Assembly (NCBI GenBank): GCA_959347315.1
Contig: OY365806.1
Span: 27,146,811-27,210,810 of the forward strand
DNA: 64,000 bases
Reading direction: 5' to 3'
Source of the DNA: Bimastos eiseni
Lineage: Eukaryota; Annelida; Clitellata; Crassiclitellata; Lumbricidae
Shown here: one piece after another, positions 15,301-53,370 of the stretch
Layout: each line of letters starts with the position of its first letter
Position numbering within the stretch: the stretch's first letter is position 1
Made by a program: the position numbers and the translations under genes
Notes under the pieces: model-generated
What the model saw: only the letters and a program-made list of their open reading frames with translations
Databases searched by the model: none
Told to the model about the DNA's origin: nothing

Positions 15301-18300
15301 TTAAAATAATTAGATAAATAATCTAACATAATCTTTTGAAATCAAATCTTTAAAATATAGAACGGCAATTGTGTGCGTTTCATTCATCAATCCATCAGCG
15401 TTTCATTCGTTCATCCATCCTTCCATCCGCTCTTAGATCTTTCCATTCTTCTATCATTACATTAGCTTATCATTGAAGTCATCTATCCATCCATTCATCC
15501 AACCATTCGTCTATTCTTTTATCCAAAAATTATATATCCAACTATTATCCCCTTAAGATTTTATAAATTTTGAAATCATCTGTTGGAACGTTATTAAAGG
15601 AATCAGATTTGATCTTAGCGAACAACATAGCTGCAATAACTGTCTGTGAACAACCGCCCAGATCAATAGTTTGCAGAGCAGAATCACGACATGGCGCAAT
15701 AACAGTAATTATGGAAAGTGCAAAGCTCCACCGCCCAATATCTGCCGTAGATGAGGCCATGACTCAGGCCATGACTCAGACCCGACAACGAAAATTAGTC
15801 AGATCTTTGCCGACGATCCTTTCATGTAGGCCTATTGCGCTTGTATGATTCGCCAGATGTCCCAAATCGCTGTCAAGTTTGTTTCATTACTTTGGTCTGT
15901 ACATTCGGTTTGTTCAGGCAGTGTACAATCCAAACGTAAAAATCGGGCAGAACTGTCAAGTTTTTATGCCCTGGTCGCTTTTATTAGAAAATGAAGCCCA
16001 TCAGAAATAAAGTGCCAGCTTATACAAGGTGAAGAACCGAAACATATTTGCAAGATCCCTACGAATTTTGTAGAATGACATATAATTATGGCTATCAAAC
16101 TTACACATTGTCATGACGTGTAGGCCTACCTGCATAAATACGCAATTTTTCTCTAGTAACAACGAAATGAGTTTTTCAATTTCAACATCGGTGAACCAAT
16201 CCGAACTCACATCCGCTTTTTTGTATTCAAGAAACAAACGCATGTCGTCTTCCATCATCGGCTGTAACTTCTTCTGCAACTTGTTCAGGAAGGCATCCAC
16301 TCGCTCTGGGGTCTTAGCCATTCGCATATCAAGAATATAGGCGGCGTGACTTGGATATGACAAAAGCTTGGCTTTCTATAAAACAAGCAGAAATAACGTT
16401 TTTACATTATTTAGCCCGCAAATAATATTCGCCCATTAAAAAATTCTCAGCTAAAATCATAAGTATGACGTAGGGATAATACCCCTGGAGATTGAATAGC
16501 GCAACGCACCCGTTAAAAGATGTTACATAAGTGAAAAGCTCACAATGTAGCTGATAGAGAAAGATCAGCGATGGAATGAATGATGAGCGAGGACAGATCG
16601 ACTGAATTGATATATCGAATTGGAAAATAGGTCTTCCTTTCGCAGCGAAGAGACAACGTTACCTGAAACAGCTTTTAAAGCTGGAAACTCTACGGATTTA
16701 GAAGGCCTGTAACTTTATCGCAATGTAATGTAATGTATCTAAGCGCCCACAAAAGCCTAGTCAGGGAGGGAGACCAGCTTATACACCGGCGCTTTACCAA
16801 ATCAAGTCCGCAATAGCCAATTCTCTCGTTTCTTTGTGGTCCAAGTCGAAATCCAGAGGTCAAGTAGAGGAGACAGCATGATGCTAGCAGGAGTAGAAAC
16901 GGGATATGATGGCTTGAAGGAATAAATTGTCAAATAAATAACTGATTGGCTGATAAACAGCTCTCGAATGGATCAGGTGTGTCTTTATATTCCATTGCAT
17001 TCATTAATGAGATCAGATTGAAGGACAACATTCAGACTGTGATTTATGGCAGACAAATAGTAGACGTATACCTGATCACGCAAGCTGACCAGCTTCTCCA
17101 ATATGATGGTGTTCTCCCTCATACACCTTTGCGCAGACAAAAACGATTTCTTAGCTGCTGATAATGAATCGTTTCGAAAGCCTTAGTTTTAAAATGTATG
17201 AGTCGTGTGTGTATATATGCTGTACAGATAAAGCAAACAGTTTGGAGTATTATAGGCCTACCAGATGTACACCATTACTAACCAATGAGCTCATCAAAGG
17301 GTAGCAATTAACGTCAGCATCCTGCAACTTGTAAGGGGCAAGAGAATAAATTCAAGAACGACTTGCCTACAGCCTATCACTGTACACTTATGATGAATAT
17401 CTTGACTTGATATTTGAAGATGCATACATTATCCTACACTTTAATATTACAACTCTTTCTTGATGTCTGAAAAACCTCCTTTCTAGGAAACGAGATCGTC
17501 CTCTGCGCACAGTCATTTTCAAATAAATTCATGAATGACTATGCAGGTTTTCTAAAGTATAACGACACCTTGACTTTGGCGTCTTTAAACATTTTAACGT
17601 ATTTTTATGGTTTTCAGTTCATTTTCCAGTAATTTTCATACGTAGTTTCTTTCGATTTTCTCGTCGTTGATGTCGTGTCTAACAGATTGTTTGAAACACC
17701 GGTGTATATTTTTGCAGGTCAGAGGCGTAGCTTGCGTATTTTGCGCCTGAGGAAAACTACAGAAATGGCGCCCCTTTCGCGGCCATCCACAAATGACGTC
17801 ACGCGCCCAGAGGAGGGTCACACATTTGTGAAGATGTGTTATGAGAAGAAGTAAATGCCGAGACTGTAGATTGGATAGACGAAGACGAGCTGGATATGAA
17901 TGTTTTCCTGTTCAATGGGTATCCAATGGATACCCATTGAATGGGTATCCAATGGATACCCATTGAACAGGATGGTGAAGTTCAAGCTCTTACTGTCATT
18001 CCACGAAGGAAAACTTTACTTCTCCGTGGGAGAGTGAAGAAACAAAAATGTTATCAAACATTTTCTCAAATGTAATGATTCTATCAAAGCTGTGGAATGT
18101 ATAACGAATGTGATAATTCTACATTATCCATTTGCCATAGTTCTTCTATATAGTTTTAAGTATTTCTTTTGTTATAATTACTTTATTTGATAAGGATAAG
18201 ATATGTGCATATGACATTCTTTACATCTGCTTTTTCGAAGGTATGCAGAGCGTTGTGTCATCATATATCAATGGCTATGACTTGTCACGACGTGGGACGA

Positions 18301-21300
18301 TGGCGAAGGGAGTCAAAATTCGTCGATATTTGTGTGACGTCATTTATGGACTTTCTAATCTATTTCGCATATCTCAAATAAATATTATCTTATGCATGAC
18401 TGTCAGAGAAAGTCTACAACAAATTAATTTTTTGACTTAACTGTCGCAAATTGGTCAAAAGCATTATAAAAAGTTGGTTTTCAATGTTTCTCGTTCAATT
18501 CTAAGAAGAGCATGATCGCCGAAACGATCTTGTCCCATTGAAGACCGCAAATACAATAAAATTAGCTTCAATTTGGTAAGGGGCCGCTTACGTCTCGCAA
18601 AATTTTGAAACAGAATTGTTATAAGAATTTGCAGTGAAATACGTAGATTTCGAAATTTGTCATGATTATTATGATACAATATCTTTCCGAAGAACAGCCA
18701 TCTCAAATGGCTGGACTACTCACCACACACCCATTTACAGACAACTGAATACTTGGTAAATGTGATTAATAAATGCGTCAAATTATGAGACTGAGCGAAG
18801 ACGCAATTTTGAAGCGTCTGATACATTCGCTTTAGCTTTGATCAACTATAGCGAACAGAAGAGATGGAGATATCAAACTGGCTCAAATTATTTTACTCGG
18901 TGTGCTTCGATCTATTATTTCGCTTCATTCAGCAACGCTGGTGAAAGTGCGAATGAGGCAAACCTTGAGTTGAAAGCCGTTTCTAGCCTCATTCTTATAT
19001 CCGGGCTCTTCACATACTTCATGCACCGTAGGTAAGCCGTACTGGAGAGTGGAATTTTACAACGCCCATCCGAAGTCTAAAATTTTATAAGAAATTTATT
19101 TCATTCACTCATCCAATTTCATCTGTAGCTTCCAAAAGCATCGCTATATAAGTCTTACATAAAATAGAAGCAGTCAAGTTATTGAGATATGATCTGTGCA
19201 TCCAGAGATATTTTATGTTTTAAAACCACACTTAAGCTTGATCAAAGTCGCCCTTTAACCAGAGTTGTATGGTCTCGAGACAGTGTCACGGTTTCGAGAC
19301 GTCTCGAGACAGTGTTTTCTAGTGTCTCGGTCTTGATCTCGGAAGTCTGTTGTCTCGGTCTCCAGGTAATGTATCGAATTTTTAGGAACTGTCTTGAAGT
19401 GAAGGTCTTTTTTTGTCTCGAAAAAGCAGTCTCGATCAGTTTCGCATTAACCGCCTTTAACATTTTCCGCAATTTGAAGTTAGGCCTATTTAAAAACAAT
19501 AGCTATTGGCTATTAGTTTGTAATTGATGGAAAATCTTCATAACCGAAACGATCGAATCAACTTCGAGTTCGCAGGATTTGCGCAAATTTATAATTTTGT
19601 TTGGTATTTTGTATCAAATTTGCTTATTTAAAATCATCTAGAAGATTTCAGACGTGCATTCTTTATACTATTCAGAAGATAGGCCGAAAAAGAAATATCG
19701 TAAAAGATAAAACTGGGCAATATAAAAACTGTTCTTGGAAATTGAAATAATATACATTAAAATTAAGTTTCAAATTGAAAATACAAATGAACCTTATTCC
19801 AGAAAACTGATGCATTAGTATTTTACAGCCTTTTATACAGGATAACTTGTCTTTTACTGTCTCGAACTGTCTTGAACCTAGTGTCTCGGTCTCGGTACCT
19901 CACTGTCTCGGTCTCGGTCTCGGTACCTCACTGTCTCGGTCTCGTCTTGGTCTTGAAGTTTAAGGTCCTGCATACAACACTGCCTTTAACTGACCATACA
20001 GGTCCATACTGCCGTGCAACCTAAGCCTCTGTCTCTGCTTCACTTCCTCCGACTTTTATTTTCTACCACTTCATTGTCGCCTTTTGTCGTCTAACTCGAA
20101 TTTTAACGCAAATAATTATTTTGATGATTTGTTGCAGGTAATTATACAAATGAGGAAATAGACAGAATCGTAAAGAAACCAACAAAGACGAATGGCGATA
20201 ACTGGTCTTGTTTTATATGACTCCTATAAAACTCTGCAGCGCAATGCACGCTCGGGTTGTGTGGTGGCTGTGAGCCTTATTTGGCTGTTTGCAATCGTCT
20301 GTATAGCGCCTGTACTCAAAATGGTAAATGATATGCTACTTAAATACTAGGTAATCTCAACCAATTATGACTCATCAAATGCAAGCTCTATGTATATGTA
20401 CAGATATGTGATATGACAAGAACCGAACATTGCTTAATTATTCTTTACTGAAGTGAAATGCTAAATGCTCGAGACTATCTATTTGCCTATTGCTTATGAC
20501 GAAATATACTAGCATTGTTAGAAAATAATTCTTATCAGAGCAGGGTTGCAGATAAGTCAAACGACGCAACAAGGAATGCAGTCAGAGCTTAACTAACCCG
20601 CGTGATTGTATTCATGTCGTCTGGTGGAAGTCCCTCTGAAAATATGACTTGCAAGTTACAAAATATAATAGTGTCTCGTTATTCATTATATGCTAATGTT
20701 GGAAGACCAAGAATGAATTGTCTTGACCACCCTACATCAGGGATGACGTGATATACATAGAGTTGGATCAGCAAGTAATAGCTATAGTATCAATGAACAG
20801 CGCCGAGTGGGCAACTGTGTTGCCCAACGCGCTCACCTGCTCAAAGATGACACGAGGATCTAAGCACGTGGTTAATATAGTACACGGATCTTTGAAAATA
20901 GGAATGTACTCTATGTGGAATTATTTACTCATTTTATGAACGTTGCGATTTTGTGAAATGTTCAAATCAAATCATAAATAATAACCTAGTATTTGCTTTC
21001 CCTGCAGCTGTCTTCATGCGTTAACTCATGACTCGTGTTAATCTTATAAACCATTATTTTAGAAACATAACATTTGCTTTGCATTTCTTACCAAGTTCTG
21101 AAGGTTGGAACTTAAGAGTCGTGTTATCGTCGGCCAGATTCTGAACGAAGTCAATGCTTAGACCGTTCATCGACTTCATGAGATCTGATATCTTCACCTG
21201 AATATTCTTTGACAAGTGCAGTCCTAAAATGGCAGTTTACAGAACGCAACGTCACACGACAAAATAAGTAATGGCTCTTGCATGTAAGAGGAATAAGCAT

Positions 21301-24300
21301 CCTCCCGCCTAAGCCGAGCGCGTATACACATCGGCGCAATCGCTCACAAGTGACACCCGTCCACAGTTATATATTATTAATATTTAATATTAATATTTGG
21401 GCGTGATGCTCACCAGTTAGAATATAAAACTATCATGCTATACTGTTATCACACAGCCATCGCCTACCACGAACAGTCAACTACAAATAATAAATTCTTT
21501 TGATTGCCTTCGTTTCCTCATCGGTCGGTAAAAAAATTCGCTCGCAACCTTCACATAAGAGAATCATGCATGCATTTTTGGCCAAAATGGCAATTATATA
21601 TAATTAATTGATGCTGTTCTCTGCGCGTTTTAAACCCCGAAATCAACTCCTCCATGTATAAGCCTACTTTGAATTTATTGCAATCAATCGGACATTAACA
21701 TTTTTATTACTCAGAGAGATGCACGTCGAATTAGTCAGCCGGTGTTATCATATGATTAAATTAAGTCTTCTGTTTCAAGGGTTTCTCCTTTATAGTGAAT
21801 GAACCAGTTTCCTATAATGTACGTGGCCAATTAAAATAGTCACAAGTTCACAACTGTCACAAAGTCAAAGAATTTACCAGTTGCTCTTATGGACGCCAAA
21901 GTTGATGAAATTCGATAATCTGCTGAACAGGAAGCATTTTAATTTGAGAAAACTAAAATAATATCAAAGCCAAAATGGCATGTTTCTTGAAAACTCTTAC
22001 GAAGCTATGCATACCATTGCGCTTTCCATATGTGATATTTCGTTCGAGGAAACGTTTTGCCTCCGGTTTCAGATTACTGCCGAACTTCCTCTGTGCTTCC
22101 AGCAAGACATTAAACACGTCTTCTCTCATACTGTACAAGTAAAGAAGCACCTATGACTGTACATACCATCATACCATCACACCATCACTAGTAATATATT
22201 CATCTGAGGATGATGGATCAAGGACAATGTATGTATGTATGTACGTATACATGCATGGGTGCATGCATGCATGGATGCATGCATGCACGCACGTATGTAT
22301 GTGTTGTTGTTACATGCTAGGTATGATTTTAAGGCCCTCTAGATTTTACAATAGCAAAGATGTATTATGAAAGTAATATATATTAAACACCCAAGGTGAC
22401 GAATGAATGCAACCTGAAACGTCTCACATTCACTTTAGTCCTGACACTACGAGCAACTCAGTTAGTTAAACAAACGTGGAACTCAGAGCAAAGTACAGAC
22501 AAGCTATATTTAACTCAAATACAGACTTACATAATACGACGAACTGGAGAATCTCTGAAACATTGGACACAACTATAGTGCAAAAAGCGATCTCAAATAC
22601 AGGTATATACTCAATACCCATTCAACAGTTCCAGTCATCGATTAGCTCTGACCTTAGCAACAACCGCAGGCTAGGGATTCCTATGTGAATGGATGATGTC
22701 ACTAGGTAGGCAGAGCCTAGCACGATGAGGGATGTACTGGTGGTTGCGAACCCTACAGTGGTGCCCCACTTTGCATACGCATACCGCAGTAGACTGTTTC
22801 CTTGGTCTGCGCACAACGGGTGTCCAGCCTCGATATAAATCAACATACTTACTATCATACCTAACCCGCACTATACCCTCGCAATTATAATGAACTCGGC
22901 CATAAGGCGGACCACAAATAAAGGAACCGTAAGAGCTCATAATTCACCGCGGCCTCGTTGTAACCCGTATTTCCACAAATCTCAGCGACCCAACCAGCGT
23001 CAGAAGAAATAAAGGGCGCTGTACACGAGGAAAAAATGTCAGTTACAGTCGTATGATTGTTGTCATCTACTCAACCAATCCATGAGACGCGTCAAGCGGC
23101 GCTACAGAACATTGTAGTTGTAGCATTTGGCTACCTAAAGAAGGTCATATTTACTCAAATTTGTTTACCTAAAGAAAGTCATACTTTCTCTCATTCCATT
23201 TGTCTACCTAAATAGGTGGTAGTTACTACCATATGGCTACCTAAAGAATGTCGTAATTATTCCCAGTTGGTTATATGAAGAGGGATGGGTCAAGCGGCGC
23301 TAGAGGAGATCATAGGTGTAACGAGAACTTCCACACACGTGCAGGGCATGCATCGCTATTTTGAAGACCCACAACGCTCTTAAAACTCAGTCTAATATCA
23401 AAAACTGCTGCGGTGCAATAGCATATTCGTTAAAGCGCTCAGCCCATAACGTGAAACGGAAGAGTTCAAAGCTCCTCTCGAATCGTTATTCTCAAATTCA
23501 ATGGGCGCTCTACAGTATTGTACGCAACTAGACTTAACACTGGGAAGGCCTGTAATGTTTCGTACAATTTCAACCTACACGCACCCAACATGGTAGCACA
23601 CATCTACCCAAACACACGCAAACGCACAGATGCAAGCCCAACAATTCGTATAAACATGACTCAAATCGTCACCGCTTGGTACACACAGATATAGACACGG
23701 GCACCGACACGGAAAATGAACGAACAGGCAAACGCGTAAACAGAGAGACAGAGAGGCTCACAGGCGTGTCAAGAACGTCAATTAAGCGCCCCATCAAACG
23801 ATGCATCGTACAGATTTAGACGAGATCCAACGAGTATATGTTGATACAATGATTGGCCAATAAATGAATCTAATTAAAAAGCTTCAATCAGACACTAGTA
23901 GATGAACAAACATAGACAAGCAGACAGAGAGTCTCACAGGGGTGTCAACAAAGCAGCAATTAGCGCCCGACCAAGCGATAAATCGTACAGCCTTAGACGA
24001 GATCCAACGTATATGAGTATACGCATACAAAGAATGGTCAATAAACTCTTGTAATTATGAAGCATCGATCAGACGTAGGCAGATGAACAAGTAAACAAGC
24101 CCGCAGCCAGGCAAACAGGGAGAGGGAGAGAGAGACAGACAGACAGACAGACAGAGACTCACGCGTGTGTCAAGGACAGTAATTAGCACCAGACTAAGAC
24201 TTGCTAATACTCAGCTAAACAAAATACATAATTAGAGAGTGTATTGCTTAATATTTCACGTGATTTTGATGAAACTTTACAATTAATATACATTTATATA

Positions 24301-27300
24301 CATTAACAAAGGCCCTACTATGCGGAATTTATTAAGAAAGCTGGTAAATTAACGCACGCGGCATAAGTATAACTTCTATAGCACCAATATATAATGTCCA
24401 AAACTTCAAACCGCAGCACATAGCGCCCAGGTCAAACATACAATTAACTCATCAAACGCCATAAATCCACTTCTCAAGCTTAGTCTACTCGACAAACACG
24501 CAACAGGTGATCCAGAGAAGTCGAGAGACAGACGGCGATTGGCGACAATGGGACAGAGAGCGAAATATCGAACGATCCTGATACCCAGTCGTCCCAATTG
24601 AAAGCGACATATTGTAAAACATGCAGGTTTCTGGTTGAACAAATAGCTTGCTTACTAAAGCTATCAATAAGAAATGTCACCCCGACACACACACACACAC
24701 ATCCGCGTGCACGCACACACACTCGCTCAAAGCAGCCATGAACGAACTCATTGGAACAACTCATATCTCAAACATTCTCCCGCGCTCTCGATTAGCGTGT
24801 CAGAGGGAGAGAGACAGACAGAGATAGAAAGAGCGAGAGGGATAGAAATATGTACCCTTGACCAAAACCACGAATACGAACAATCACACACACACAATTG
24901 TAGCGTATCCAACATGCAATTAATCCGCTAATCCTCGCATACACACGCCAAGAATACACGCACAATGTTCGACCAAGCATGACTGACCGTTTAGTACTTC
25001 CGTGTACCCATGTATTTAGGCCATCAGTCTGAGAAATACATTAATATGAGATTACAGATTAGCCGTTGAAGAGAACGGTCGTGTCCATGCGAGAGTTGAT
25101 CTCAAGCATAAGCGACGTGTATTGGATTTCTTTAATTTGGTGGATTGAGGTTATCTTACGATTCTTTACGTGCGTATTTAATATTGCATTTTTACATTCT
25201 GTCTACGAAATTGTAGATAATGGAGAACGGGGCTGTTCTGGCCAAAAAGATCCGCCGCGTCAGCGAATCGCGGAAACAAAGACAAGATGGTGGACAAAGC
25301 AGTCTCGTCACACGCAGTGCGATCGTTGAGCAATTCCTCCGACGAAGAGATAAAGACACCGTTGAAAAGAATGCGGATCGCAGACAGCGGCACAAGCGAA
25401 GATAGTGAGACCGATATGGAGGTTCAATCGGCCGAGGTAGGAAAGGAAACCTATTCTACCATTGTCAAGAAACGAGATAAGAAGGCGATATCAGATGACA
25501 TTGCAGAAACCTGCAACGCCAAGTATGCCATGCATGAAGATAGATCTGGGTCAGAAATCACGTGCTGTGCCTCGACCTGAAGAACCAAAGACAACGACAT
25601 CAATTCCAACGGAATTACTACCGTAATCCAATGTCAGCAGCAAGGAGAACAGAATTGGAAGGTCTGTGCCAACGCTCAATTTACGGTAAGAGCGAAGGAA
25701 ATTTTCTGCCGTTACTGTTTAAATCGCGGCCAATAACCTTGAAAATGGAAATCTTAACCGCTAGCCATTGTGTTCCTGAGGCTATCCAGATATCGGGAGA
25801 TAGTCTCAGAATTATTTGTAAGATTGCAGGTGACAAAGAAAAGATCAAGGGCATCACCCAGATCGACAGAAAGATGATCGAGTGGAGCGAACAACGTGTC
25901 CTCACGCGTCCGACGAGTCCGGAAGTCACCGAACAGAAAGCCGATGCAAGCTACGGTGTGAAGGGAGTAATCTTCGGAATCGACGAGGACACGCTGAAGG
26001 AGATCGCTAAAGAAATCGGCGCCAAATACATAAGGAGAATCGGGAAACCAGAGAGCACAGCCAAGGTCGTGGAGTATGAGAAGGGGACCACGCTGCCGGA
26101 AACCATTGAGATCGACGGCTTCCGGTACAAAGTAAGAATATTTACTTTCTCCAATGAGGTGCAACAAGTGCCCACGATATGGGCAGGTTCAAGCTGTTTG
26201 TAGAAATCAAATGAAGTGTTGTAGATGTGGACAGTCGAACTGAATGTGAGAACTTCGAGACGTCCAAGTGTGTGAAATGCTCGGGGTCACACAGTGCAGC
26301 CTACAGGCAGTGTTTAAAATACCTGGAGACAAAATAAACACTGAAGATCAGGGTCGTGGAGAAGGTTCCACTCAATGAAGCCATCCTGAAGGTGAAACAG
26401 GACCAGAAAACAAAGAAAGAAGAAGGAAAGGCCAACAAACCAGACAAGCCGACGAAGATCAGCTGATCATACTGTTATCAGATCGCAGACGTATTGTGGT
26501 CGGAGACTTCAATGCCCACAGTAAAGAATGGAAATGTACCAACAACAACAGACGGGGGACCGATCAGGAGGAGGCTATCAAGGAAAAGGACCTTGTTGTC
26601 CTAACACAGAACAACCCACTCACAATTCCAGGGTAGGATCGGTAAACAACTCTGTCATTGATCTTGCCATTACAACTAAAGATGTTGCTTTAAAATGCAC
26701 CCACAGCGTCCTGAGCACTAGCTTCGGATCCGATCACAAGGTCACGCTCACCAGAGTTGACGAAGTGGCGGACGTCGAGGAGAACGCAGGACAGGACCGT
26801 TGGGCTCGCAAAAGAGCCGATTGGAAGGTATTTTGACAGTCCAGCAGGATTCGAATTCATGACGGCATAATATCAGACGACTTCGATGCAACTTCCATGT
26901 CTTCATGGAAGAATTGTACGGAACCGCTTCCTCTGCTATGCCGGAGAGAAAGGTAAACTCAAAAGTTAGACAGCATAAACCATTATTATTTTTGGAATGA
27001 TAAATGTTCACAGGCCATCTACGAAAAGAACAGAATGCAGGACCAAGACAACAAAGTCGAAGAATCTGGACGACCTGATCGAATCCCAACAACAACAAGC
27101 GAAGACCAGGCGAACCATCACGGACACGGCTCGACAGAATTGGGAGGACTTCTGTTCCACCTTAGACAGTCAATCTAAGCCAGGACCGGTGGGGGAATGG
27201 CGAGGAGGATGAACGGTGTAACAGCACACAGAAGCATCCCATCCTTCACATCGGAAGGAAGAGACGCCAGCTCAAACATCGACAAGGCGAACCTCCTCGC

Positions 27301-30300
27301 CGAGACGTACGCGAAGACGAGCATCAGCGACAACTTCAGCGAAGTGTTCAAATGGTATGAGTCAGCCAGTGAGCGAGACTCTTTGCAGGTTCCGCCTCCT
27401 ACCGTCATCATTTATTCAGACGTCGAGGCCCTAAATGACTCCTTCCGTCTCCGTGAACTGAAGAAGGCCATTAGAGAGGCCAAGGAGAACCGGAGCCCTG
27501 GAGAGGACAAGATCCCGTACGAGATGATCCAGAATCTACACAAGTCACTGATGGTTCTCTTGAAGATTGACAACCGCGTCTGGAACAACGGCAGCCTGCC
27601 ACGAGACTGGAAACATTCGATCATTCTTCCGGTCCTCAAACCATTCAAAGACCCAACGAAGCCGGAATCGTATCGTCCGATCTCTCTCACATCCTGCCTG
27701 TGCAAGATCATGGAGAGGATGATCACAAATCGGCAACAGTGGTTCGTGGAGCGGAAGCACCTGCTGACGAAGGAACAGGCAGGCTTTCAGAAGCACAGAA
27801 GCACCATCGACGAAGTTATCCGCCTTCAGGACAAGATCAGCAAAATCCTGAAGAACAAACGTCACGTTCTCGGAACCTTCATCGGCTTTGAAAAGGCCTA
27901 TGACATGCTCTACGTTCCTACTCTCATGAATAGGGTTCAAGATCTGGCAGTCATTAGTAAGATGTATAACTGGATCAAGGACTTCTGAGTGAGAGAACCT
28001 TCCAGGTAAAGATAGGCGCAGCATTGTCTTTACATTGCTTGCAGGAAAACGGAACACCGCGGGGATCTGTCATCTCTCCGCTTCTGTTCCTCATCATGAT
28101 CAACGACATTCCACGAGGAGACGGAACAGAGATTTCGCTGTTTGTCGACGACAGCGCTCTATTTGCCAAAAGAGTAAACCTGAAGACACTGCAGGTCCAA
28201 GCGCAGAGATCGTTGAATCAAATCCAGCGCTGGTGCGATGAGAACGGATTCAAGATCTCAACCGCGAAGACGACTGAGTGGTCTTCAGCAACAGCAGACA
28301 GAGAGCAGGAGAGGTGGAGCTGAAGATACAAGGTAAAAAGATGGTGGTGAACACTACTGCCAAATTTCTGTGTGTCATCTTTGATTGTAGATTGACGTTG
28401 GCACCGCATATTGAGTATGTGATTACAAAATGCAATAAAAGACTCGGTCTCCTGCGTTCTGTGTCCGGAAACAAGCGGGTAGCAAACGAGAAAGACCTCC
28501 TAATGCTCTACTGAGCCCAGATCCGACCCATCCTCGACTACGGGGCATTTGCGTTCTGCACGGCCAGCGACTCTCAGCTAAATAGGATGGAGTCCGTCCA
28601 AGCACAGGCACTCAGGATCGGCGGCGGAGCTGCTCACGGAATGGCTACAACAGCTGTCCAGAACGAGTGCGGGTAGATGCCACTACATCCACGATGGCTC
28701 AGAGACAGTGTGAAGGAGGGTATCAAGATCGTCACCAGCAAAGATCACGCGGCAGAGAAGGTGATGAAGGACCACTGGACCCTACACAGAACCAAGTTCC
28801 AAGATGGTAAGCAACCCTTGTTTCAGCACACGAAGGAGTTCTTAGATACTATGTTTCAGGAGTGCAAATGCCCGGTGTAACAGAACTCGCCTCCTTGGAA
28901 GAACGGACACATCCAGGTGGACTCGAGACCGACACTGATGACGGACGTTCTCGAAAACATCAACAGTCTTGGCACGAGCGACGTCACGGTCGCCTGGATC
29001 CCGAGCCACGTGGGTATCCTTGGCAACGAAGAGGCAGAAGCAGCGGCCAAAGAAGGACTCCATCTACCGGCGGTCAACTCCACTACGTACATCGAGAGAC
29101 AGGAGATGATCGCCAAGATCAACCGGTACGTATTGGAAAAGTGGCAGAAGGAATACACCGACAACCCGAAAGGAGCCTTCTACAAGCAGATCGAGCTGCT
29201 CGTGTCAATCAGAATCAAGTACATGGATATTCCGCGTAGGGCGGAATATGCAAGAGGTCCAGATGACTGATGTCGAGACTACGTATGGGTTGAGTGCTGC
29301 TGAACCAGTGGCTCCCACGATGAATCTACACCCCGATGGAAACTGTGAGGAGTGCAACGTTCCGGACACCATTGATCATCTCCTCCTGGAATGTTCAGCC
29401 GATCCAGCCGCAACAAGTGCCAAGAACCCGGAATCCACTGCACCACAAGAAACATCCTCCAAATCACAGGTGTGCAGAAGGAGGTGGTAAGAATCATTGA
29501 TGAGATTACCAATGGTCAGATTCTATAGAATACATCAATCGCCTCCTACTCAACCAAAACAGTATGTTTATTGAATCTACATTTAATATTACCCATTTCA
29601 TAAATATACAAATATAAATATGCACATATAGAAATGCTTCCAAACTCGATATTGCATAACAATGTGTAATTATATTGCGTATATAACTATTTACATGTGT
29701 AGTCTAAACAAAAATCACCAAAATACTAAAAAAACAAAAAAATATTTTAGACAAAACAACCCATATTAATGTAAATATGTCTAGTAGTGCTGTAGATGAC
29801 GAGGAATAAAGAAACCCGCAGGACCAAGGAGCTCTATGTCTGATCGTGAAAATGAAACCAACTCGAAAGACCCTTGCCAGATTAACGAAACCATAGAGAC
29901 AGAAAAAATGTATCAAACACAAAAGTCAAGAACATGGTAAGAAGTCAAAAACCTTTGCTGTCAAAAGACGTCCCTAAATATTCTTTTCCCTCTCTAATAC
30001 ATTAATGTATTAAATCCAAACCACTTTTCAAACTCTTCGAGTTGCCACTTCAAGTATTAAATGAAACCTAGCCAAACGTTCATAATCGAAATAGATCAAC
30101 CGACTTCTATACATAGGACCATATAAACATACTCTTTAGATTTCTAGCCTTGATAATCATATTCGAGTCGTCCAATTACAACAAGCATTCATTTTCGCAT
30201 ACAATATAAACGAACAATACCTACTATATGACTCATGTAAATTCTACCACAAATATTTTAATATAGTTACAAATAATCATATCATGTAGGCCTACATTAT

Positions 30301-33300
30301 TTTAAATGCGTTCCCTATAGCGCATTATTCATCAAACTCATCTGTGAAATCTATCCGATACAGTTTCTACTAACGAGCACAAGCAGCAATTTAATCATAA
30401 CGATGCCATATGAATTCGAGTAAGGACTTCATAAAACTTGAAATTGTTGCATAGCATCTAAGATCAAAGATTCTATAGTGCACAATGTAAGTATCACTTT
30501 TGCGGATGCTGCAATTATTTAACCATAACCTATAAACTAAATGCGCCACGTATTGCTAGTAAATTTAAATAAAACCCATAAATACCCAGTAAACCAGTAC
30601 TCGTCGGACTGAGTCGAATTGACGTCTTCTTCGTCGGCAACTCGTCGTTATCGTTACGCGGCATCTCGTAGGGTGCTCGTAGGTTTAAATTTCAATCCGA
30701 CGAGAAGGACTGCATGAAAATTCCCGCTCCATTGGCGGTACGGGAGGCATCGGCTTGGTTGAGTTGGATTACGTGGCCGAGCGATAGCGAATCATCTGCG
30801 GGACGGTCATTCTAAATTGATGCCACGTGTGATCGTTCTTTTGTGAAGTAACGCTGAATGAGGTATGCACATCGCTGTCTTATATTTATCACGAAAACGT
30901 TATAACTGTAAATAGCAGCGTTACGTTGGGCCTAATTAAACGTTATTTTGATTGTATATCCTTAATCCTTTGCGTAATATTCATAGGCGTAATATTCATT
31001 ACCAATCACATCAGGCAATCTTCGCAAACATTATCCGGGGTAAGGCGTCATATTCATTAGCAATCACATCAGGCAATCTTCGCAAATCTTATCTGGGCTA
31101 GCACTAAACACTGAAAAGACACCAAAAGGCCAAAAGATACCGAAAAGCACAAAGAACTTACTTCTGTAGCCTTGTATCTAGAAACTATACGGCCACGTCC
31201 TTTTCGGTGCTTTTCGGTAACTTTGGTGTTTAGTGCTACCGATTATGGGTGATATAATAGTGCATAATATTAGCTTATAGTCAAACAGGTTGTCACACCT
31301 GCCGGTGTGGCTGCCTGCTAGGTGTCTATCACTGTAGTTAGATCGGGTAAAGTCCCTCGGTTATTAGCAGCCACCATATCTGCGCTTTTGACATTTGCTT
31401 TAAGATTGTAAAATGCTCGAAGATTGGCGCGTTCAAGGGTTGCCGATTATTCAAAGTTACACATTAAAAGTTTAGTGCCCGATACTGCAGTCACGATAGT
31501 CACAGCAACAGATGTTGTGCAACTGACCAGGAGAAGCACTTGGAAATTTTTGCTGTTCGTTTTTGGTTGTTTGCAATATTGCGGCTTTCAAGTAGGGGTG
31601 TTGGTAAAATGCGAACCATAGACGCGAACGGATCAGGTTAAGGCATCGTGAGTGTCGGTTAGGGTCAAGGTGGGCATCGTGAGGGTCTGTTAGGATTAGG
31701 GTTAGTGTAGTTGATATATAGCGTTCAGGGTCATGGCTAGTATCGTTTATAGATATTTGCCGAGAACCTTTGGCCGCATGAATAAAAATATAAATGCAAC
31801 TATAGGCGCGAACTAGTCACGTGAATTTCAGAATCTCAGATTTCAATTAATTTAATTTAACTTTAAGTATTATATATTAATTTATATATATATATATTTA
31901 CAATACAACTCAGCATTTATAACTCGCTTTATCACAAGTCGTGGTCAAAAGCGCGTACACGTCTCGATGACGCAAATGCAGTTGTAATGCAGAGCATAGT
32001 GTGCGAAGGACTTGCTCAAGGTCCTTACACAGTGGCACCCTGGACGAGGGTCGAAGCCGCTCGCTCAGCGCACACTGAGCGTTACGGGCTGACCGCTCTA
32101 ACCGCTCGGCCACCATGCGACATTTTTTTGGCATTAATATTCGGGTTTCCCAATTGATATCTCAGCTTTCAACTAATTTAATTTAACTTTCATTCTAAAG
32201 ATAGAAATTTTCAGATCCATCTGGGGCAATCTCCACAAAACGCCTGGCATCAGGAACATGATGATCTGATACAATTTTACAATATGATGTGTGTGATATT
32301 GTTACTTTAGTTACTTTGCCTATTCACTAACTTTTGCATTTATTATGTTGTACACAGATATGGTAAACTGACTGACTCGCAGTGAAGTGAATACGGATAT
32401 CATCACTATGGAATGGCTGTGTGGGGCCTAAGGGCAGGAATTGTTGAATTTCAGCAGCATAGAAGAGGGTAATAATTCTGATATATAAAGCGTACACGTA
32501 CTATTAATGACAAAAATGTGTTCACTTTTGCTCCAATAAAATTAAGATCTCAATCAATCAATGTGAACTTAATAAAGCACCCCTTCAAAATATCTACTCG
32601 CAGGCGCTCCTATGGAGTAACAACGGCTGAAAATACAGATTTAAACGTAGAGCAAAATGTAGGCGAGGCATTTCTAGGCAGGAGGCATAGCTCTTGGTGA
32701 AGCCCATTCCAGATGGTCGGGCCCAACGCTGGGAAAAGCCCGATATTGCATCGTAGTGGAATGCCTTTTGATGTTACTGGCTAGCATTTTTATTTGTATC
32801 CCTGTTCTCTTAGTAAGCACTAAGACCAGCAGATCATCACCACCTAGCTATTGTAGTATTGTATGGTATATTTTTTCATTGATTAGCGCTAGTTGTCATG
32901 ATGTCACTAATTCACGAGTCTGAATAGTTAACCATATCTGTGAATTAGTTACAAATTATCCGAGGAGCCCAAGCATGGAATAGGTTAAGTAAAGGCATAC
33001 CACCAATGGGATTCTCTTGGTGAAGAAACACAGAACCATGTGCTGCCATATGACTACGTAACAGGTCACATGCTCCTACGCACGATTCAGGACCTCACAA
33101 ATATGTCCTGTGCCGTGGTCCCCACAACGAGGTTGGCTATGGATTAGCATTTATGATTCGTGAATTTGTGCTGCCTTCTACATGCTGTTTTCTTTTTTTT
33201 ATTTTGTCTGTAGGCCTATAGCTAAGTATTTGCAGAGCATGGCTTGCAAAGAGTCACAAATTAAGCAATAAACTGTTCCGAATGCCCACGGACCTGTTCT

Positions 33301-36300
33301 TTGCAACAAACAAGGGAAACACGCGGCTGCAAACGCACACAAGTCTCTAATGTATCCAAGGGAAAGGATAGGAACCAGAACGAAAATGGCATCTTCGACC
33401 TCCAAGCATCCGTAATCAACACTGTATGACGGGCCTGCCTTTCCATCAGCAGTCAATCAATCAATCAACATTTATTTGGCAATCCAATAAATTGAACAGA
33501 AATTTATGACAATTATTACAAATTTTACAGTTATTATCGGATCACCAAGGAGACCCAATTAGGGATCGGAAGATCCCGCTAGTTAGGGCCAACTGGGGAG
33601 GTTCGAAGTAAAAAATAAACGATTACACCAAATTTTAGAACTGTAAGATATTGTAAGTATTGTAAGATTGCACAAAAACAGTTCTTTATAAAATATTAAC
33701 TGAAAGCTTAACTAGACTTAATTAATAACATAGCCATCCAAGTCACAGTTGTTGATTCAAAGCATAATAGTTGGCCCTTTATTAGCACATTGCAAGAACG
33801 CCAGCCTTAGGACTACAGAGCAGGGTAACCCTAACCAAGGTCTCTCCTACGATAGTTGGCGCATTATTAGCACATCGCAACAACGCCAGCCTTAGGACTA
33901 TAAAGCAGAGTAATTTTAACTAAAGTCACTGTATCTCTCAACCATGTTCATTCAGTATAGCCTCCCTCCACTCAGTTCTGAACTGGTACAGATTTGGAAT
34001 AAGGCGCAATGGAAGTGGGATGTCATTCCAAATCTTCGGTCCTGTGCGTTTTAAAGATGCGAGCCTAAAGTTCGTCCTCGCATAAGGGATGTAGAAAGTG
34101 GGGTTTCCTCTTGATAAATGATAATGGGTACCTTGGTGAAGAGGAAAATAATCTAGGAATTGGCTGGGTAATAAGTTGCGGGAGTATTGGTACATGAAGA
34201 TTCCAATTTGTCCGAATTTGTTCAATTTTTAGTATCTTTCTGTTTTTGAATTCGAATCTCGTGTGCGCACCATATGGTATGTTTGCTACAAATCTGATTG
34301 CTTTTTTCTGTAAAATACTCAATTTCTGTAAATTTGATTTGTAAGCAGAGGCCCAAACTATATTGCCATATGCTAAATATGGGCAAATGAGAGTGTGATA
34401 TAGGGTTGAGCGGGCCTTAGCTGGAAGTACCTTAGATATTCTAGAGACTATTTCAATACTTTTAGCAACTTTAAGTGATATTGCAGATATGTGATCAATC
34501 CACGATAAGTGCTGATCTACAATAATTTCCAAAAATTTAGTGGAAGAAACTTGGGTGATTGGTGTTTCCAGAATTCTAATAGTTGGTGAATGCTCAGGTG
34601 GAGGCTTTATGTATGATCTGAACAATATAAAGTTGGTTTTAATGATGTTAAGGGTTAGTCTATTAGCTACGAACCATTCTGCCATCTTATCTAGTTCAAT
34701 GTTTGTCTGGCTAATCAGCGTTTCAAGGCAGGAATGGGAATGAAATATTTTAGTGTCATCAGCAAAAAGTATAACAAATAAAGCCGGAGCTACATTTGGA
34801 AGGTCATTAATATAGAGAATGAATAATAATGGTCCCAGGATAGACCCTTGGGTGACCCCATATTTTATGGTTAATAGACCAGAAGAGGTGTTATTACGGC
34901 GCACTAACTGTTGCCTATCAAACAGGTAGCTTCTGAACCAATTTAGTTGCGTGCTTCGTATCCCGTGTATGGATAGTTTCTTAAGAAGAATATCATGGTT
35001 TATGGTGTTGAAGGCTTTAGCCAAATCCAGGAAAATTCCAATAGAATATTCGTTATTGTCTACGGCAGCTGATATTTTATCCTGCATGTTGAGTAAAGGC
35101 ATGAAAGTTGAGTGATCAGTGCTAAACCCATACTGAGCAACATATAGAAGATCCGTTTTTGCAATAAAATTATTAAGGCGTTCATGCATTGCTTTTCGTA
35201 TAATTTCGAGAATATAGGCAAAACTGCGACTGGTCTATAATTAGAGGCACTATCTCTTAGGCCTTTCTTAAAAATTGGGACAACTTTCGCAATTTTTAAG
35301 GCTTTTGGAAAAATGCCCGATTTAAATGAACAATTTATTAGTTCTGCCAAAATGGGAGCTATGACCGATAGGCTTGTAATAGCAACAGAGGGATCAATGT
35401 CATCCACTCCTCTAGATTTGGAAAGTTTGAGACTCTTTCCGACCCCTATCAATTCATTCGAGGATATTTCGGTTAGTCCGAATGATTAATTTCTGAAGGG
35501 AGCCATATATTTTTCTATGGGTGAGGTAGATTCGGGGATTAGTGAAGCCAGTGAGTGCGCTATATTGGCAAAATAGCTATTAAATTCTGTAGCAATTTGC
35601 GTCGGATCGTTAGTTGATACACCGTCTATTTTTAGCGACTTAAACATTGTTGTTTCAACTCCGTTGTTCAGCAGAGATCTGAGAATTTTTCATGTCTTTT
35701 TTAAGTCGTGTCTATGCTTACAAAATTCGGTGTTCAGAAAATTCCTTTCCGTTAAAAGCCTAATTTTCTTGAAGTTATTTCTATATCTATTATATTTAAT
35801 CTTATTTGCCTCTGTTGGATGTTTAACACATCTCAATTGCAATTTCGATTTGGTAGCACAAGACTTTAAAAGACCTGGTGTCATCCAGGTTTTTTTGACA
35901 ATGCTCGCTTGTTTTGGTTAATCCTTTTGAGAGGAAATGCCCTATTATATTCTCTGGGGTAGTTATCCATGAATAAATTATATGCCTTAAATCTAAATCT
36001 TTGCAAGCAGATAAGGTCTGTGCCCAGTCTTGTTGAGATAGAGAAGTAAGAAATAAATCAGTGGCCGCTGATGTAAAGCTTCTTCGAGTTTGACTGATTG
36101 AATAAGGCGGGGTCACAAGGCTATAGCCAAACGTCGCTAATATAGGAAGATGGTCCGAAATGTCTGAAATTATTATTGACGATCCTATTATTTTATTCCA
36201 CATGTTAGTGAAAATATTGTCTATAAGCGTGGCGGTTGATTCTGTTACATGGGTGGGTTTCATAATCACAGGGAGGAGGTGGTGAGACAGTAGGCAGTTG

Positions 36301-39300
36301 AAGAATTCTTCTGTTGGTTTATGCGAGCTACTTTTTAGAAGATCTAGGTTAAAATCTCCAATTAATAGGTGCTCCTTAGATTTACCTTTTATTTTATTTA
36401 GAAGTAAATCTAGTTCGTTAGAAAAGTCTTGGACTTGCTGGCCGGGCGGTCTGTATATTACTGCTATTATGGTTGATCCAGTTTTGTGGGGCAGGCGCAA
36501 GGTTAAACCCTCAAAGTTAGTGAATGGCAACTCACTCATTGTGTAATCCACAATTTCGTAAGAAATTTCCTGTCTAATCAAGAAGCCCACACCCCGCCTC
36601 TCCCCTGTGATCGTGATTTATGCAGCAGTTGATATCCAGGAATTTTTACTACGTCTGCTTGGCCCTCCTCCAACCAAGTCTCCGTTAAGGCCAGGACTGA
36701 GACCGGAACAAGCCGCAGGAGGTCTGTGATTTTGTTTATTTTGTTTAACTATACTGCGACAATTTAGATGCATGATAGAAAACTGCTCAGACATTTGATG
36801 AAACTCCTGGGTTAGGGATTTGGGTATACAATAGTTAGGGGTGCAAGGCAGATCTTTGAAAAAGTTGCAGTCATGGTCTCGATCAGTGTTGTTTGCCAGA
36901 CAATGGGTCTCGGACTCTTCATTAAAGAGAGACTGATTTAAATCATTGGAATGGTGTAGTAGTGTATCTGCCAGTACATTTAAGCCGGTGCTTGGGGACC
37001 GAAGTTCATAGTCTATATGCGGGTTATTGGGGAAGGTCTTGATTGAGTGGTCCGGTGTTCTATCGTTGGAGCCTAGGATACACGTATTAGTAGCACAAAG
37101 CTGTTGTTGCATTTCTGGGAGAGCTTACATCATACGCGTGTGACGGGCCTGCCTTTCCATCAGCAGTGTTCAGCACTGCGGTCAAAAGCTCCAGTAACTC
37201 CTCGAATTAAGAACTGGAGTCGCTTGTGAGAGCCGACTTCAGGAGTCATATTGAGACGCTTCTCATCAAAGTGCCCCTCCTCAGAATTTCTACAGGGAAG
37301 AGTTCATGCTCATCGAACAAGATTGAGAACGCTTTGAACTCATAATATCTATATAAAGATAAAGACATAATGAACTGCCACATTGCCCTAGGTAGCTGTC
37401 CCAGAGTGCCCTTGTGAGTTAATTGCTGCGATATACATGTATGCATACTTTGTAAGTTAAAGCACAGCCTTTATTTTAATGCCCGCACTAGGCTTATCAT
37501 CCTGCAGAACAAATATCTATAAATTGAATTTGTGCAAGCGCGTGTATTTATGTACAATACGATAAGAATCTCCTCCCATGTCATGCTAAATTGGGACTGT
37601 CCATACTGGGCTCCTATTGCTTCCAATGTGTTATTTTATTGATGCCTGTTTAATATGATTATTTCCTGTTATATCTGAAGATTGGACTACTACTCAAACA
37701 ATAAAATGTAATTGAAACCGAGTCGTATATAAAGTTAAAATGACTGTATTATAGAGTTCTATGTTCTACTTCAACATTTCAAACTATCATTGTGTGCATA
37801 AAGATGATGAACATTAGATTGTGACTAGGCCTACTATAAACAACACATACCTGCCCCCACAGCTGTGGCCAAGATATGATTAGAATAGACGCAAATCTGC
37901 TTAGAGCGCAAAGCATTGGAGAAGTCCTTTACCTCTAGTTTCCTGTTTGGGGTTTTCTGGTTAGGTTGCGGCCCATCTTGCACCCCATAAATTGCATATT
38001 ATGTATTCAAACATTTATTAAACTGATGTTGAATAAAGACTGAGTGAGAGTTAAATCTACCTTTTCACAAAAGATTTCATCTTAGCTTAAACACTATAAC
38101 GATATTGTCTATAATCACTGTAGGCCACTTCATTTGTAACATTGGAAAATTTGACTGATAAAGCAATCGGGTACCATGCAATGGGCACGGTAACTTACTG
38201 TGTCTTGATATTTGAACTGATGTCGAACCGACGGGAATTAGATGCGTCGGGTTGACGTCGGAAAATGCCGTCGGGACGCGAATTAGAGACGTCGGATTGA
38301 CGTCGGAAAACGCCGTCGGGCGGACGTGAATTAGAGACCTCGGATTGACGTCGGAAACCGACGTCTACACGTTACCGTGTCAGTTACCGTGTCAAGATTG
38401 GCCGATACAGTGCAACGCGTAGAGCGTTTTTGAAATCTATTCTCAAGTAACAACAATGGGGGGTGCAACTTTTACATGTTTAGATCACACCTGGTTACCG
38501 AGTCTGAAAAACTCGCCTGATATCGGAGCACCCGTTGAGCGGCAGGACGACGGTCAGACATCGGATACTGATGAGTTTGTGGACGTATTACCGACGTCGG
38601 TCGGCCGTGGGTGGTTATCTGAGTAACTACTGTTCAGGTCAAAACAATCGAATAATAGATTCTACGCTACCCAAATAATCATTGCTCAATCCAGACATGC
38701 AAATTTTCTCTTTTATATCGCGCATTGTGCCAAATAAGATTGTGAATTCACCCTAGTTGATTCCCATCTTCTCTAACCGTCCAAATGATGCGACGTTTTC
38801 ATAGCAAATTAATTTTAGAAGCATAATCGAGAGGATTTTGCATAGCTTAATTGGCTGAAACCGATGTTTTCCGACTTTTATGCATTACAATCGAGCTCAA
38901 CTGATGCAAGAAATTCTGCACAAAACGCTAGATTTCAATAGATTTCAACAACGCTCTTCGCGTTTTACTGTTTTGGTATTAATCACTCGAATATTGAAGA
39001 AACGCCACACCAATTGGTAGCTTTCTCGGCTGTCAAGATTCATGAATAGATAATTGGCGATAAGAATTCACTTTTCACAATTAGGTCGCTTATTTCCTTG
39101 AAATTAGGCCTATCATGGACGGATAATGTCGCTGCGTATCATTTCTTAAACGCTAACAGCCCGTTGTTTACATATATTCCTAGAATAGTCTTAGCGTTTT
39201 GTGCAGAATTTCTTGCATCAGTTGAGCTCGATTGTAATGCATAAAACTTGGAAACATCGGTTTCAGCCAATTAGGCTATGCAAAATCCTCTCGGTTCTGC

Positions 39301-42300
39301 TTCTAAAATTATTTGCTATGAAAATGTCGCATCATTTGGACGGTTACAGAAGATGGGAATTCAACTATCGTGAATTCGCAACCTTATTTGGCACAATGCG
39401 CGATGTAGAGGAGAGAATTTGCATGTCTAGATTGAGCAATGATTATTTGGGTAACATAGAATCTAATATTCAATGGCTTTGACCTGAACAGTAGTTATTT
39501 ATGGGTTTCATTTAAATTTCCTAGCAAATGGCGCATTTTAGTTTATAGGTATGGTTAAATAACTGCAGCATCCACAAAAGTGATACTTACATTGTGCACT
39601 ATAGAATCTTTGATTTTAGATGCTATGCAACAATTTCTCATACAAATGGCCTGAATACATGGGTACATGGAAGTACGAAATGTTATGCTAGGTCAAACAT
39701 TGTGCGTGTATGCTTCGCGTGTATATGCGAGAATTAGCGGATTAATTGCATGTTCGACACGCTATAATTTGTTTTTCGCTTGAAAGGAAGTCATTGTGGC
39801 AAGCGAAGACAATGAACCTATGTACCTGTATATTTGTTTGTAGATGTCGGCGTGGTAGTGACATATTGAGGGCATGTGTATATTTTTTATCCACCTACCT
39901 GCATGTGCGAGTTTATTCGTATGTTTCCGTAGATATTATTGGCCAATGGGTTAGTTTAGCTTAACATATGAATGTGCTCGTATAGTAATCGAGCCTGTTT
40001 AGGCGTAATGATGTTGTGAAAAAAATGTCGCCACTTGACACTTTCCTACGTCGTCCTAGCCTCGAATTCGTGTGTGTGTGTGTGTATGTGTGTGTGTGGT
40101 GTGTGTGTCAGGGTGACATTTCTTATTGCCAGCTTTAGTAATCAAGCAATTTGTTCAACCAGAAACCTGTGTGTTTTGCAATATGTCTCTCTCAATTCGG
40201 ACGACTTGGTACCAGAATCGTTCATATCTCGCTCCCATTGTCGCTAATCGCTGTCTGTCTCTCCCTCTCCTTCGCAACATGGCGTTGTGTGTTTGTCGTG
40301 TAGACTAAGCTTGAGAAGTGGATTTATGGCGTTTGATGAATTAATTGTATGTTTGACCTAGGCGCTGTGTGCTGCGGTTTGAAGTTTTGGACATTATGTA
40401 TTGGTGCTATTGAAGTTATAATTATGCCCGCGTGCGTTAATTTACCCGCTTCCTTAATCGCTTCCGCGTAGTAGGGTCTATGTTAATGTATATAAATTGT
40501 CAAGTTTCATGCCCTGCACGTGTGTGGAAGTTCTCGTTACACCTATGATTTCCTCTAGCGCCGCTTGTCCCATCCTTCTTCAGGTAACCAACTGGGAGCA
40601 ATACGACATTCTATAGGTAGCCAAATGGTAGTAACTACCACCTTATTTAGGTAGATAAATGGAATGGGAGAAAGTATGACTTATATCGAAGCTGGGCACC
40701 CGCTGTGCGTAGAACAGAGAAACTGCGGTATGCGCATGCAAAGTGGGGTACCAGCGTAGGGTTCCCAACCTCTTTTACATCCCTCATCGTGTTAGGCTCC
40801 GCCTACATAGTGACATCATCCATTCCCATATTAATCCCTGGCTTCTGATTGACTGAGAGGGCTCTATTTTCTATGAACCTGCGCTATCTACACTACTTGC
40901 ATGAGTGTTTTATGTATGGGTCCTTGTATGTATTTGTAAATGAACAGATAAAACCGCAGAATTGTGGATCAGGTCATTTTTTTTAAATGTGCTACATTTT
41001 TCATTAGGCCTGCCAACACAACTGATTTTTAAGATTGCCAGAAAGTACTATGGATTCCACTCAAAAGTGCATCCGCTGACCTGATTTCGTCATCAAAGCT
41101 CGACAGTTTCCTTTCAGCCTCATAGCTGGCCTCCCTTACTTCTTTACTGTAAGAGACGTGCTGCATGAAGTGCAGAGGAAGGCGAGCTGTGTAGAAGGTC
41201 GCTGTGTCTTCAGACAAAGCCTGAAATGAAGCACAGTAATATCAAAAGAGCATAATCGCTACGATACGTTTCCTTCACATAAGACTTATGCATGTATCTT
41301 CATAAAAAATCAAATGATAAACTCACGGCCTTTTAAAATTTAAGGCGCTTGGGTCCACAAACCCTAACCTTAAGCTGAGTCCCATTCCCGCCTCAATCTC
41401 ACATTCTCAGATTATAGAGTATCGCACTGCTTGTGAGTATGTGTCATTTTGTCAAATTTATAATATAATACTAAACTGCTTACATAGCGTATACACTATT
41501 CAGTCATTAAGTGTAAGCTACTACAAGTGTTAACGTTTAGTCTTAACGCTTAAATTTTCGATTTCTTTTTTATTTTAAAAGGAGTTTGTAATGAGTAAAG
41601 TTTTGCTATACATTGTATATATGAATAGTAGTCAATAGATGTGTTCTCAACCAGAGGAGTTGCCACGCCTTCTTTGGCTTAATTGCTATTCTCGCTCGCT
41701 GATTGGTCGCCCAGAATTAATATTCATGAGCCACACCCCTTCGGCCTGTCAATCATTTTAATTTCTTTTCTCGCCCTCTCATTGGCTAGACTCACTGCAC
41801 GGCGGCTGGCCTGGCTCCCAGGTCTATCATTTTAATGGTTTTTCTCTCTCTCCCATTGGATGGACTCCCGCCACGGCTGCGCCGCTGAGCTCCCTACCCT
41901 GACCTGAATGTCAGTCATTTCAATAACCTAGTTGGATCTCTCATGACTGAACTCCCTGCACGACCACTGGGCTCACCGGCCTGTCATTTTAATCGCTTTT
42001 CTCAATCTCCCAACACAACGACTAGGCCCCAGCGACGGTTGGCCGTTGGCGCTCGAACGTCAGAACGGACAATCAATTCCAATTACGATGCATCCGTCGG
42101 CTGAGACCCGCCCACGTACTGCTATGAAAAGTGAAACAGTCGTTAAATCATAGCACCGAGCTAGCAAACGCGTATAATTTAAGCGGATCAAACTTCTGCG
42201 GGGATTCCAGTTCAACTATTAAATAACAGAAATCCATGAATTCAATGGCTAGCCCTAGAATTCTCATGGAACACAGCGCGGCACGCTCATCAAAGGAACG

Positions 42301-51970: not shown

Positions 51971-51971
51971 G

Positions 51972-52636
51972 TGCGCGTGCTTCGTGCGGCTGCTGCTGGC
52001 TTGTTCATGGCTTTTAAAATGTGAGCATGTTTCGTATTATATATAGGCCTATGACATGCTCCACTGTTTTTAGGAGTTCTGTCTGCATGGGTCTGACGGT
52101 GCCAGTTAGTTTAACACCAGTCTACTTTCGAAAGTTCTCCTGCCAAATTAGGATTATGCTGAGCCAGAGTAGGGGGGTCGAGGGATTTGCCTAATTTCAA
52201 GGTCAGTCATGATAGGTGTGGTCAGTAATGCTTATAACAGAGTGTCATAGCATGACGATGTCTCTCCAAAACCTTACAACGCCAAAGTAGACTGGAAAAA
52301 TAACTTCGCAACGCCTGAACGAGCAGAGCGCTAACTAAATGTGGCAGACAAATATAGCGCAGGCACAAGCCAAAATCTCATATCTTTTTAACACGATCAC
52401 TAGAGTATAGTGATAAATGACATGCGTTTAAACAATGTCCAGCTCAGCTCTGAAGATGTCCTTTGTGCTGTGTGATAAAATTTCATGACAACAAAATGCC
52501 AATAACATTCATATTTCAGATTTCACAGCATGTATTTCCTCTCAAATAATGGCACATTTCTACATTGTATCTTTTAGCGTTTAGAAGTTAGTTTAATGGT
52601 GGTAGGGAGGACATTAAACAAATCGATGACAATCAG
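51972..52636. repeat. Dispersed repeat, copy B
   Basis: Same orientation as 764-1283. It ends in CGATGACAATCAG exactly where the TGTCACG repeat begins (52637), whereas copy A continues past CAATCAG with unrelated sequence. An internal stretch at about 52138-52245 is absent from copy A. Confidence 0.75.
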
Positions 52637-53307: not shown

Positions 53308-53370
53308 GTGTGCACTTCTGAGCAAACAATGTTGGAAGTAGGGTTATATCAAATGTCGGAATTTTAGAAT
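53308..53370 (+). mobile_element. SINE 3' tail fragment
   Basis: GTGTGCACTTCTGAGCAAAC, AATGTTGGAAG, AGGG and ATCAAAT follow in the order seen (reversed) at the tail of the 59.8-kb SINE. Opposite orientation to the four other copies. Only the tail remains. Confidence 0.6.

Follow-up and report, generated by a model that had tools for sequence, protein, structure and literature searches.

A probable decayed Polinton/Maverick-type element with long inverted arms in a peptidase intron of Bimastos eiseni

A neurolysin/thimet-oligopeptidase-like gene on the minus strand of contig OY365806.1 (C1) of the annelid Bimastos eiseni hosts two long inverted arms inside a single intron, and the question raised by this locus is how many insertions brought them there. 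The window, i.e. the whole 64-kb stretch that was analysed, is C1:27146811-27210810 of a genome of 660 Mb in 118 contigs. The original prediction offered two readings: the ends of one very large transposon with terminal inverted repeats (TIRs), whose core was later filled with long interspersed nuclear elements (LINEs), or a 1.3-kb repeat present in two inverted copies. Comparison with the rest of the genome settles the matter in favour of one transposon, because the tips of the family occur in inverted pairs, three of the four other copies that were fetched have full or near target duplications and a paralogous gene holds the empty site. Probably, a single TIR element, either of Polinton/Maverick type or a non-autonomous form derived from that type, was inserted once into the intron and then decayed. 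If so, a virus-like type of transposon can leave long, gene-free inverted ends in host introns, the intron measuring 19 kb here and 1.1 kb in the paralogue.

As predicted, a single peptidase intron contains both arms: the two exons that flank it join in frame into 86 residues that match neurolysin (E 1.2e-18). An open frame, 16001-16375, matches Peptidase_M3 of Pfam (E 1.7e-9). The intron spans 22131-41080 (18,950 bp). Its main parts are as follows, where L030 to L033 denote related copies and L036 the paralogous stretch, both described below.

41081-41220, minus strand: peptidase exon 5' of the intron, joined in frame, 91.4% identical to its paralogue
22015-22130, minus strand: peptidase exon 3' of the intron, joined in frame, 95.7% identical to its paralogue
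22668-40897, 18,230 bp, no strand: entire inserted element, replacing 418 bp of the paralogous intron (comparison with L036)
22668-25037, plus strand: outer part of the left arm (blastn), which also matches L030, L031, L032 and L033
30440-30616, perhaps to 30626, plus strand: inner part of the left arm (blastn, anchored extension)
39498-40897, minus strand: outer part of the right arm (blastn and alignment of family tips; junction with L036 at 40897/40898)
38592-38623, perhaps from 38582, minus strand: innermost part of the right arm, past a TA-flanked insert (blastn, anchored extension)

When the right arm was compared with the window by blastn, collinear inverted blocks with 80-93% identity were obtained (best E 2e-142), in agreement with repeat finding; the predicted collinearity and inversion thus stand, with five blocks rather than four. 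On the left side these are 22670-22861, 23176-23350, 24292-24725, 24896-25037 and 30440-30584, matching 40842 down to 39496. From the outermost to the innermost, 84 (84.2), 94, 90, 88 and 96% of ungapped positions are identical, which is more uneven than chance allows (chi-square 16.7, 4 d.f., p 0.002). The arms thus differ by 4-16% according to block, with Kimura two-parameter distances (K2P) of 0.04-0.18 (0.178 in the outer block), and hence the inversion was not made by an assembler that copied one arm.

Searching the genome with the arm gave at least 81 matches (40 of 133 candidates scored), many of them in the microsatellite of the arm, while the tip gave at least 16 (16 of 16 candidates scored). 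Ten of the 16 tip matches form five outward-facing inverted pairs, in the window and on contigs C2, C5, C8 and C12, and six are single. All four pairs outside the window (L030-L033) and three of the six single tips (L028, L029 and L034) were examined. The four pairs extend 41-57 bases beyond the match to the window, up to tips that begin with AGT in eight of eight cases and with AGTAGT in five (both tips of L033 and one each of L030, L031 and L032); the single tip L034 also starts with AGTAGT. In the window, the corresponding right tip, ACTACT (AGTAGT when read inward), is found at 40892-40897, 56 bases beyond the predicted end at 40841. The sizes and flanks of the four copies are:

L030: 2454 bp, flanks CACTCT/CACTCT, exact 6-bp duplication
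L031: 876 bp, flanks AGCGGG/AGCGGG, exact 6-bp duplication
L032: 3511 bp, flanks TATATG/TATGAC, three of six bases agree
L033: 5903 bp, flanks GAGGCT/GAGGCG, five of six bases agree

For any one pair, the flanking 6-mers would agree exactly by chance once in 4096 cases, and in at least five of six bases about once in 216. The genome search that had been proposed did reveal inverted pairs; the shared core expected of a single large transposon was not found in the four fetched copies, which have only arm sequence in common with the window. Their self-inverted ends are 228-531 bp long, and two of them, L032 and L033, have the long arm sequence toward one end only. No match to patterns of the arms was found in the viral contigs that were scanned. 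As a separate observation, the single tips L028 and L029 (C5:4.186 and 4.256 Mb) are separated by 70 kb, share their orientation and are 99.4% identical over 3.15 kb, which suggests a recent segmental duplication.

The empty site lies in the stretch L036 (C1:27058700-27068699), some 105 kb toward lower coordinates, in which the region of the neurolysin-like gene has a tandem paralogue. Six collinear blocks with 82-92% identity link L036 2186-9961 (C1:27060885-27068660) to window 20329-48236. Window 20329-22667 matches at 88.1% and 40898-41353 at 90.4%; window 21068-22667 corresponds to L036 2987-4533 and 40898-41353 to L036 4952-5407. The paralogous intron, L036 4015-5135, has a length of 1,121 bp, and both the arms and the core are absent from L036. 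Homology restarts at 40898, one base past the right tip, the position of which had been set from the family alignment before L036 was seen. On the left it ends at 22667, within the outer ~50 bases expected of the terminal repeat, and at this junction the window lacks any match to 418 bp of L036. The predicted outer limits, 22671 and 40841, are accordingly replaced by 22668, where the tip is lost, and 40897, where it is kept. Loss of the element from the paralogue, possible in principle, is unlikely, as it would have ended exactly at a transposon tip. The paralogous flanks have K2P values of 0.064 and 0.094, of the same order as the divergence between the arms (0.04-0.18), and these rough figures are consistent with an insertion not long after the duplication of the peptidase gene.

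The reading of two independent insertions, in which a 1.3-kb repeat arrived twice in opposite orientations and the copies enclose host intron DNA as well as later LINEs, draws on other repeat families of the window, which occur in at least two copies and both orientations; one such family resembles the left arm in being interrupted, here by 7.8 kb. In addition, a target duplication of the whole element was unreadable at the predicted ends. This reading is now highly improbable. All four fetched copies have the same tip at both ends, so that an arm is to be seen as a terminus of an element, and in three of them the flanking 6-mers are identical or differ at one base. Not just the arms but also the core is absent from the paralogue, where two independent insertions would have left core sequence. 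Between the inner and the outer ends of the arms there is no resemblance above chance, in line with the original remark, and no TIR was found within either single arm. Likewise, no target duplication above a random-position null was found either at the predicted outer limits, again as first reported, or for either arm alone; at those limits it is missing because they were wrong and the left tip is gone. At the single tips examined, no 1.3-kb copy with constant ends and a target duplication of its own was found.

The assignment to Polintons rests on the tips, the duplications and a protease-like relic. In the accessible part of a published account, vertebrate Mavericks have (AGT)2//(ACT)2 ends and 6-bp target duplications, and intact copies measure 12.7-24.6 kb with TIRs of 46-1,447 bp (PMC8097293). 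Members of the arm family share tips of this type, and the 6-bp duplications are exact in two of the four fetched pairs; the window element, at 18.2 kb, falls within the published range, though about 10 kb of it consists of later inserts. The arms, with about 2.5 kb before losses, exceed the TIRs of those intact elements, and the fetched relatives measure just 0.9-5.9 kb, with a gene relic recognised in a single copy; two of the four were scanned for genes by comparison only.

The genome itself yields at least 33 matches to the protein-primed DNA polymerase PolB (91 of 457 candidates scored). One of them, at C1:27057242, sits in an 11,931-bp element (C1:27048955-27060885), itself within the paralogue, that has AGTAGT tips, GATATG on both flanks, a 218-bp TIR, a frame for an integrase with rve and chromo domains and a protease-like frame, which matches the protease of African swine fever virus weakly (E 0.034). 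The window is the empty site of this Polinton, with a single GATATG near 20330, so that the two paralogues serve as empty sites for each other's insertions. This Polinton resembles the arm family in its tips, its 6-bp duplication and, as far as L033 is concerned, its protease-like frame, and differs in its short TIR, its length and its retained genes; its TIR is not alignable with the arms by blastn. In L033, a protease-like frame beside the tip matches that of the C1 Polinton (two-sequence blastp, E 5e-6, 67 aa, 27% identity; tblastn against a 10-kb stretch, E 3.2e-4), and one solved viral protease at E 0.41 only. Taken together, Polinton ancestry is likely from these sequence comparisons; for the window copy itself it is inferred. 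In L033, the minus-strand frame 697-1029 (111 aa), also by the tip, matches 12 of 13 candidate database proteins with up to 72% identity; it has no Pfam, PHROG or PDB family, and its capsid-like look by eye is unsupported. Neither of the two L033 frames was found in the window by tblastn, and no relative was found in the viral contigs scanned with them.

Several observations weigh against a Polinton. PolB or integrase was not seen between tips of this family in any copy, and none of the 40 core frames of at least 45 aa scored above the Pfam cut-off, the four names below it being at chance level; the window copy yielded neither PolB nor integrase nor any further gene of a Polinton. The core, with the second LINE excluded, matches none of the four fetched relatives. 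The protease link of L033 covers a short stretch, and neither Pfam nor PHROGs has a match for the frame. One of the four fetched pairs lacks the 6-bp duplication, six of the 16 tips are unpaired, and two of the three single tips seen (L028 and L029) lack AGT at the start; the target duplication of the window copy is unreadable, its left tip being gone. The missing core genes, the small size of the relatives and the weak protease link would also suit a TIR transposon of another superfamily with target duplications of about 6 bp. Such an origin is unlikely, as Mavericks are marked, in the cited part of that account (PMC8097293), by (AGT)2 tips together with 6-bp duplications, and both occur in the gene-bearing Polinton of this very genome.

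Under the favoured explanation, a Polinton-type element with arms of about 2.5 kb and AGTAGT tips would have been inserted once into the intron, probably following the duplication of the peptidase gene. Recognition of the tips, and a 6-bp stagger in the target, may be due to an integrase supplied by related elements. Decay would then have removed pieces from both arms, and the left tip together with 418 bp of host DNA, while two LINEs, one short interspersed nuclear element (SINE) and one TA-inserting element would have arrived later inside the element.

Within this explanation, it is possible, though on balance doubtful, that the long arms arose in a foldback-like manner, one end being copied onto the other so that TIRs of 0.2-0.5 kb grew to about 2.5 kb. 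The self-inverted ends of the relatives are just 228-531 bp long, and two relatives have the long sequence at one end only; equally, relatives may have deleted one long arm, and the direction is not set by any outgroup. With its long TIRs and a non-coding, variable middle, the element belongs with foldback elements, of which Galileo and the sea-urchin TU are further examples, as a structural class and not by common descent. Tetris elements, in the accessible part of their description, have long terminal repeats with tandem subrepeats and a variable non-coding middle (PMC4079207). The window element resembles them in its long terminal repeats, the internal tandem subrepeats of its arms, its variable middle and its lack of coding capacity, and differs in that Tetris has target duplications of 8-10 bp instead of the 6 bp of the relatives here. 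More tentatively still, the family might represent a branch of Polintons resembling miniature inverted-repeat transposable elements (MITEs) and foldbacks: non-autonomous, largely non-coding elements of 0.9-18 kb, moved in trans by a Polinton integrase, in which duplication of one end at the opposite end produced foldback-like arms of about 2.5 kb. The phrases "nonautonomous" or "non-autonomous Polinton/Maverick" were not found in the literature searched, a search that did not include repeat libraries such as Repbase. To our knowledge, the end sequences needed by the Polinton integrase are poorly known; if this integrase does move small relatives, these would give a handle on them.

A role of the arms in the host, as a long hairpin in the pre-mRNA that is a target of editing or affects splicing, is very unlikely. 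Both arms lie within a transcribed intron and the computed duplexes reach -192 to -620 kcal/mol per block, so that the giant hairpin of the original prediction is possible physically; nothing supports its formation or relevance. Pairing is a by-product of terminal repeats, and the arms are 8-18 kb apart, which is unfavourable by analogy with the editing of inverted Alu repeats, where, in the part of the study consulted, editing declines with distance and peaks at 300-400 nt (PMC526178). Nothing suggests a host function of the arms.

As to the arms themselves, the right one, first described as continuous, is incomplete. Most of 22862-23113 and the stretch 23351-24116 have no counterpart on the right and recur in other copies: L030, L031 and L032 match the left arm over about 22670-23002, L032 also over 23125-24116 and L033 over 23360-24045. 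These stretches are thus probably deletions of the right arm. Conversely, right-arm 39633-39972 recurs in L032, and its portion 39770-39972 is missing on the left. As stretches private to either arm recur in the family, each arm has its own losses, and the left-arm parts 22668-25037 and 30440-30616 sum to an estimated original length of about 2.5 kb. The left tip, i.e. the outermost ~50 bases of the terminal repeat, was probably deleted together with the adjacent 418 bp of host DNA. The left flank at first seemed to resemble the family tip (p 0.21); as this stretch is host DNA that the paralogue also has, the match was rejected. At the predicted inner end of the right arm, 39499, lies a TA-flanked element of 870 bp, beyond which the blastn alignment resumes and reaches 38592. 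An anchored test supports the inner extension (p 0.003 over 120 bases and 0.008 over 60), with the right-hand sequence one base short at the start; further inward, an unanchored search gave no homology above shuffles.

The insertions and the core comprise:

25038-30439, plus strand: 5.4-kb insert in the left arm with a decayed LINE (RVT_1, E 7.6e-13) and a weak RNase_H frame (E 6.7e-4, under the Pfam cut-off)
30627-38591, no strand: core, without a detected Polinton gene, partly repeats found elsewhere in the host
31942-32122, minus strand: SINE-like repeat in the core, also present elsewhere in the window and in the host sample
33427-37167, minus strand: second LINE, in the core (RVT_1, E 3.2e-25), with an exact 27-bp flanking duplication (33427-33453/37141-37167)
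38626-39495, no strand: TA-flanked 870-bp element in the right arm, with inverted repeats of about 350 bp

The 5.4-kb insert is bordered by a possible 5-bp duplication, GAAAT. For the 870-bp element, TA is duplicated at 38624-38625/39496-39497 and the left arm keeps the uninterrupted TA site; its inverted repeats are 88.6% identical by blastn and 92% at ungapped positions. The core, again with the second LINE excluded, has no match to the flanks of the nearby Polinton or to the paralogous intron. A blind sample of the host genome (21 stretches, 210 kb, 204.8 kb without N) held copies of the SINE and other pieces of the core, and no arm copy apart from one 28-base match. The SINE-like repeat, presumably with a tRNA-like head and with its strand judged by eye, occurs four times in the window (4204-4367, 31942-32122, 53627-53841 and 59837-60039) and in three of the 21 sampled stretches (L003, L010 and L019).

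Elsewhere in the window, a direct repeat family of about 1.3 kb was observed, in which 762-1283 plus 9074-9763, a copy split by a 7.8-kb gap, matches 51970-53308; pieces of it are present in sampled host DNA (L011). ARAGORN and Rfam gave no match anywhere in the window. On the minus strand, 56552-59710 is an open frame of 1052 aa without a Pfam match, for which three relatives with 58-64% identity, all from one source, were found among 7,986 scored candidates. An inverted pair detected by blastn at 45121-45369/46059-46320, 74% identical and 690 bases apart, may be another small hairpin element.

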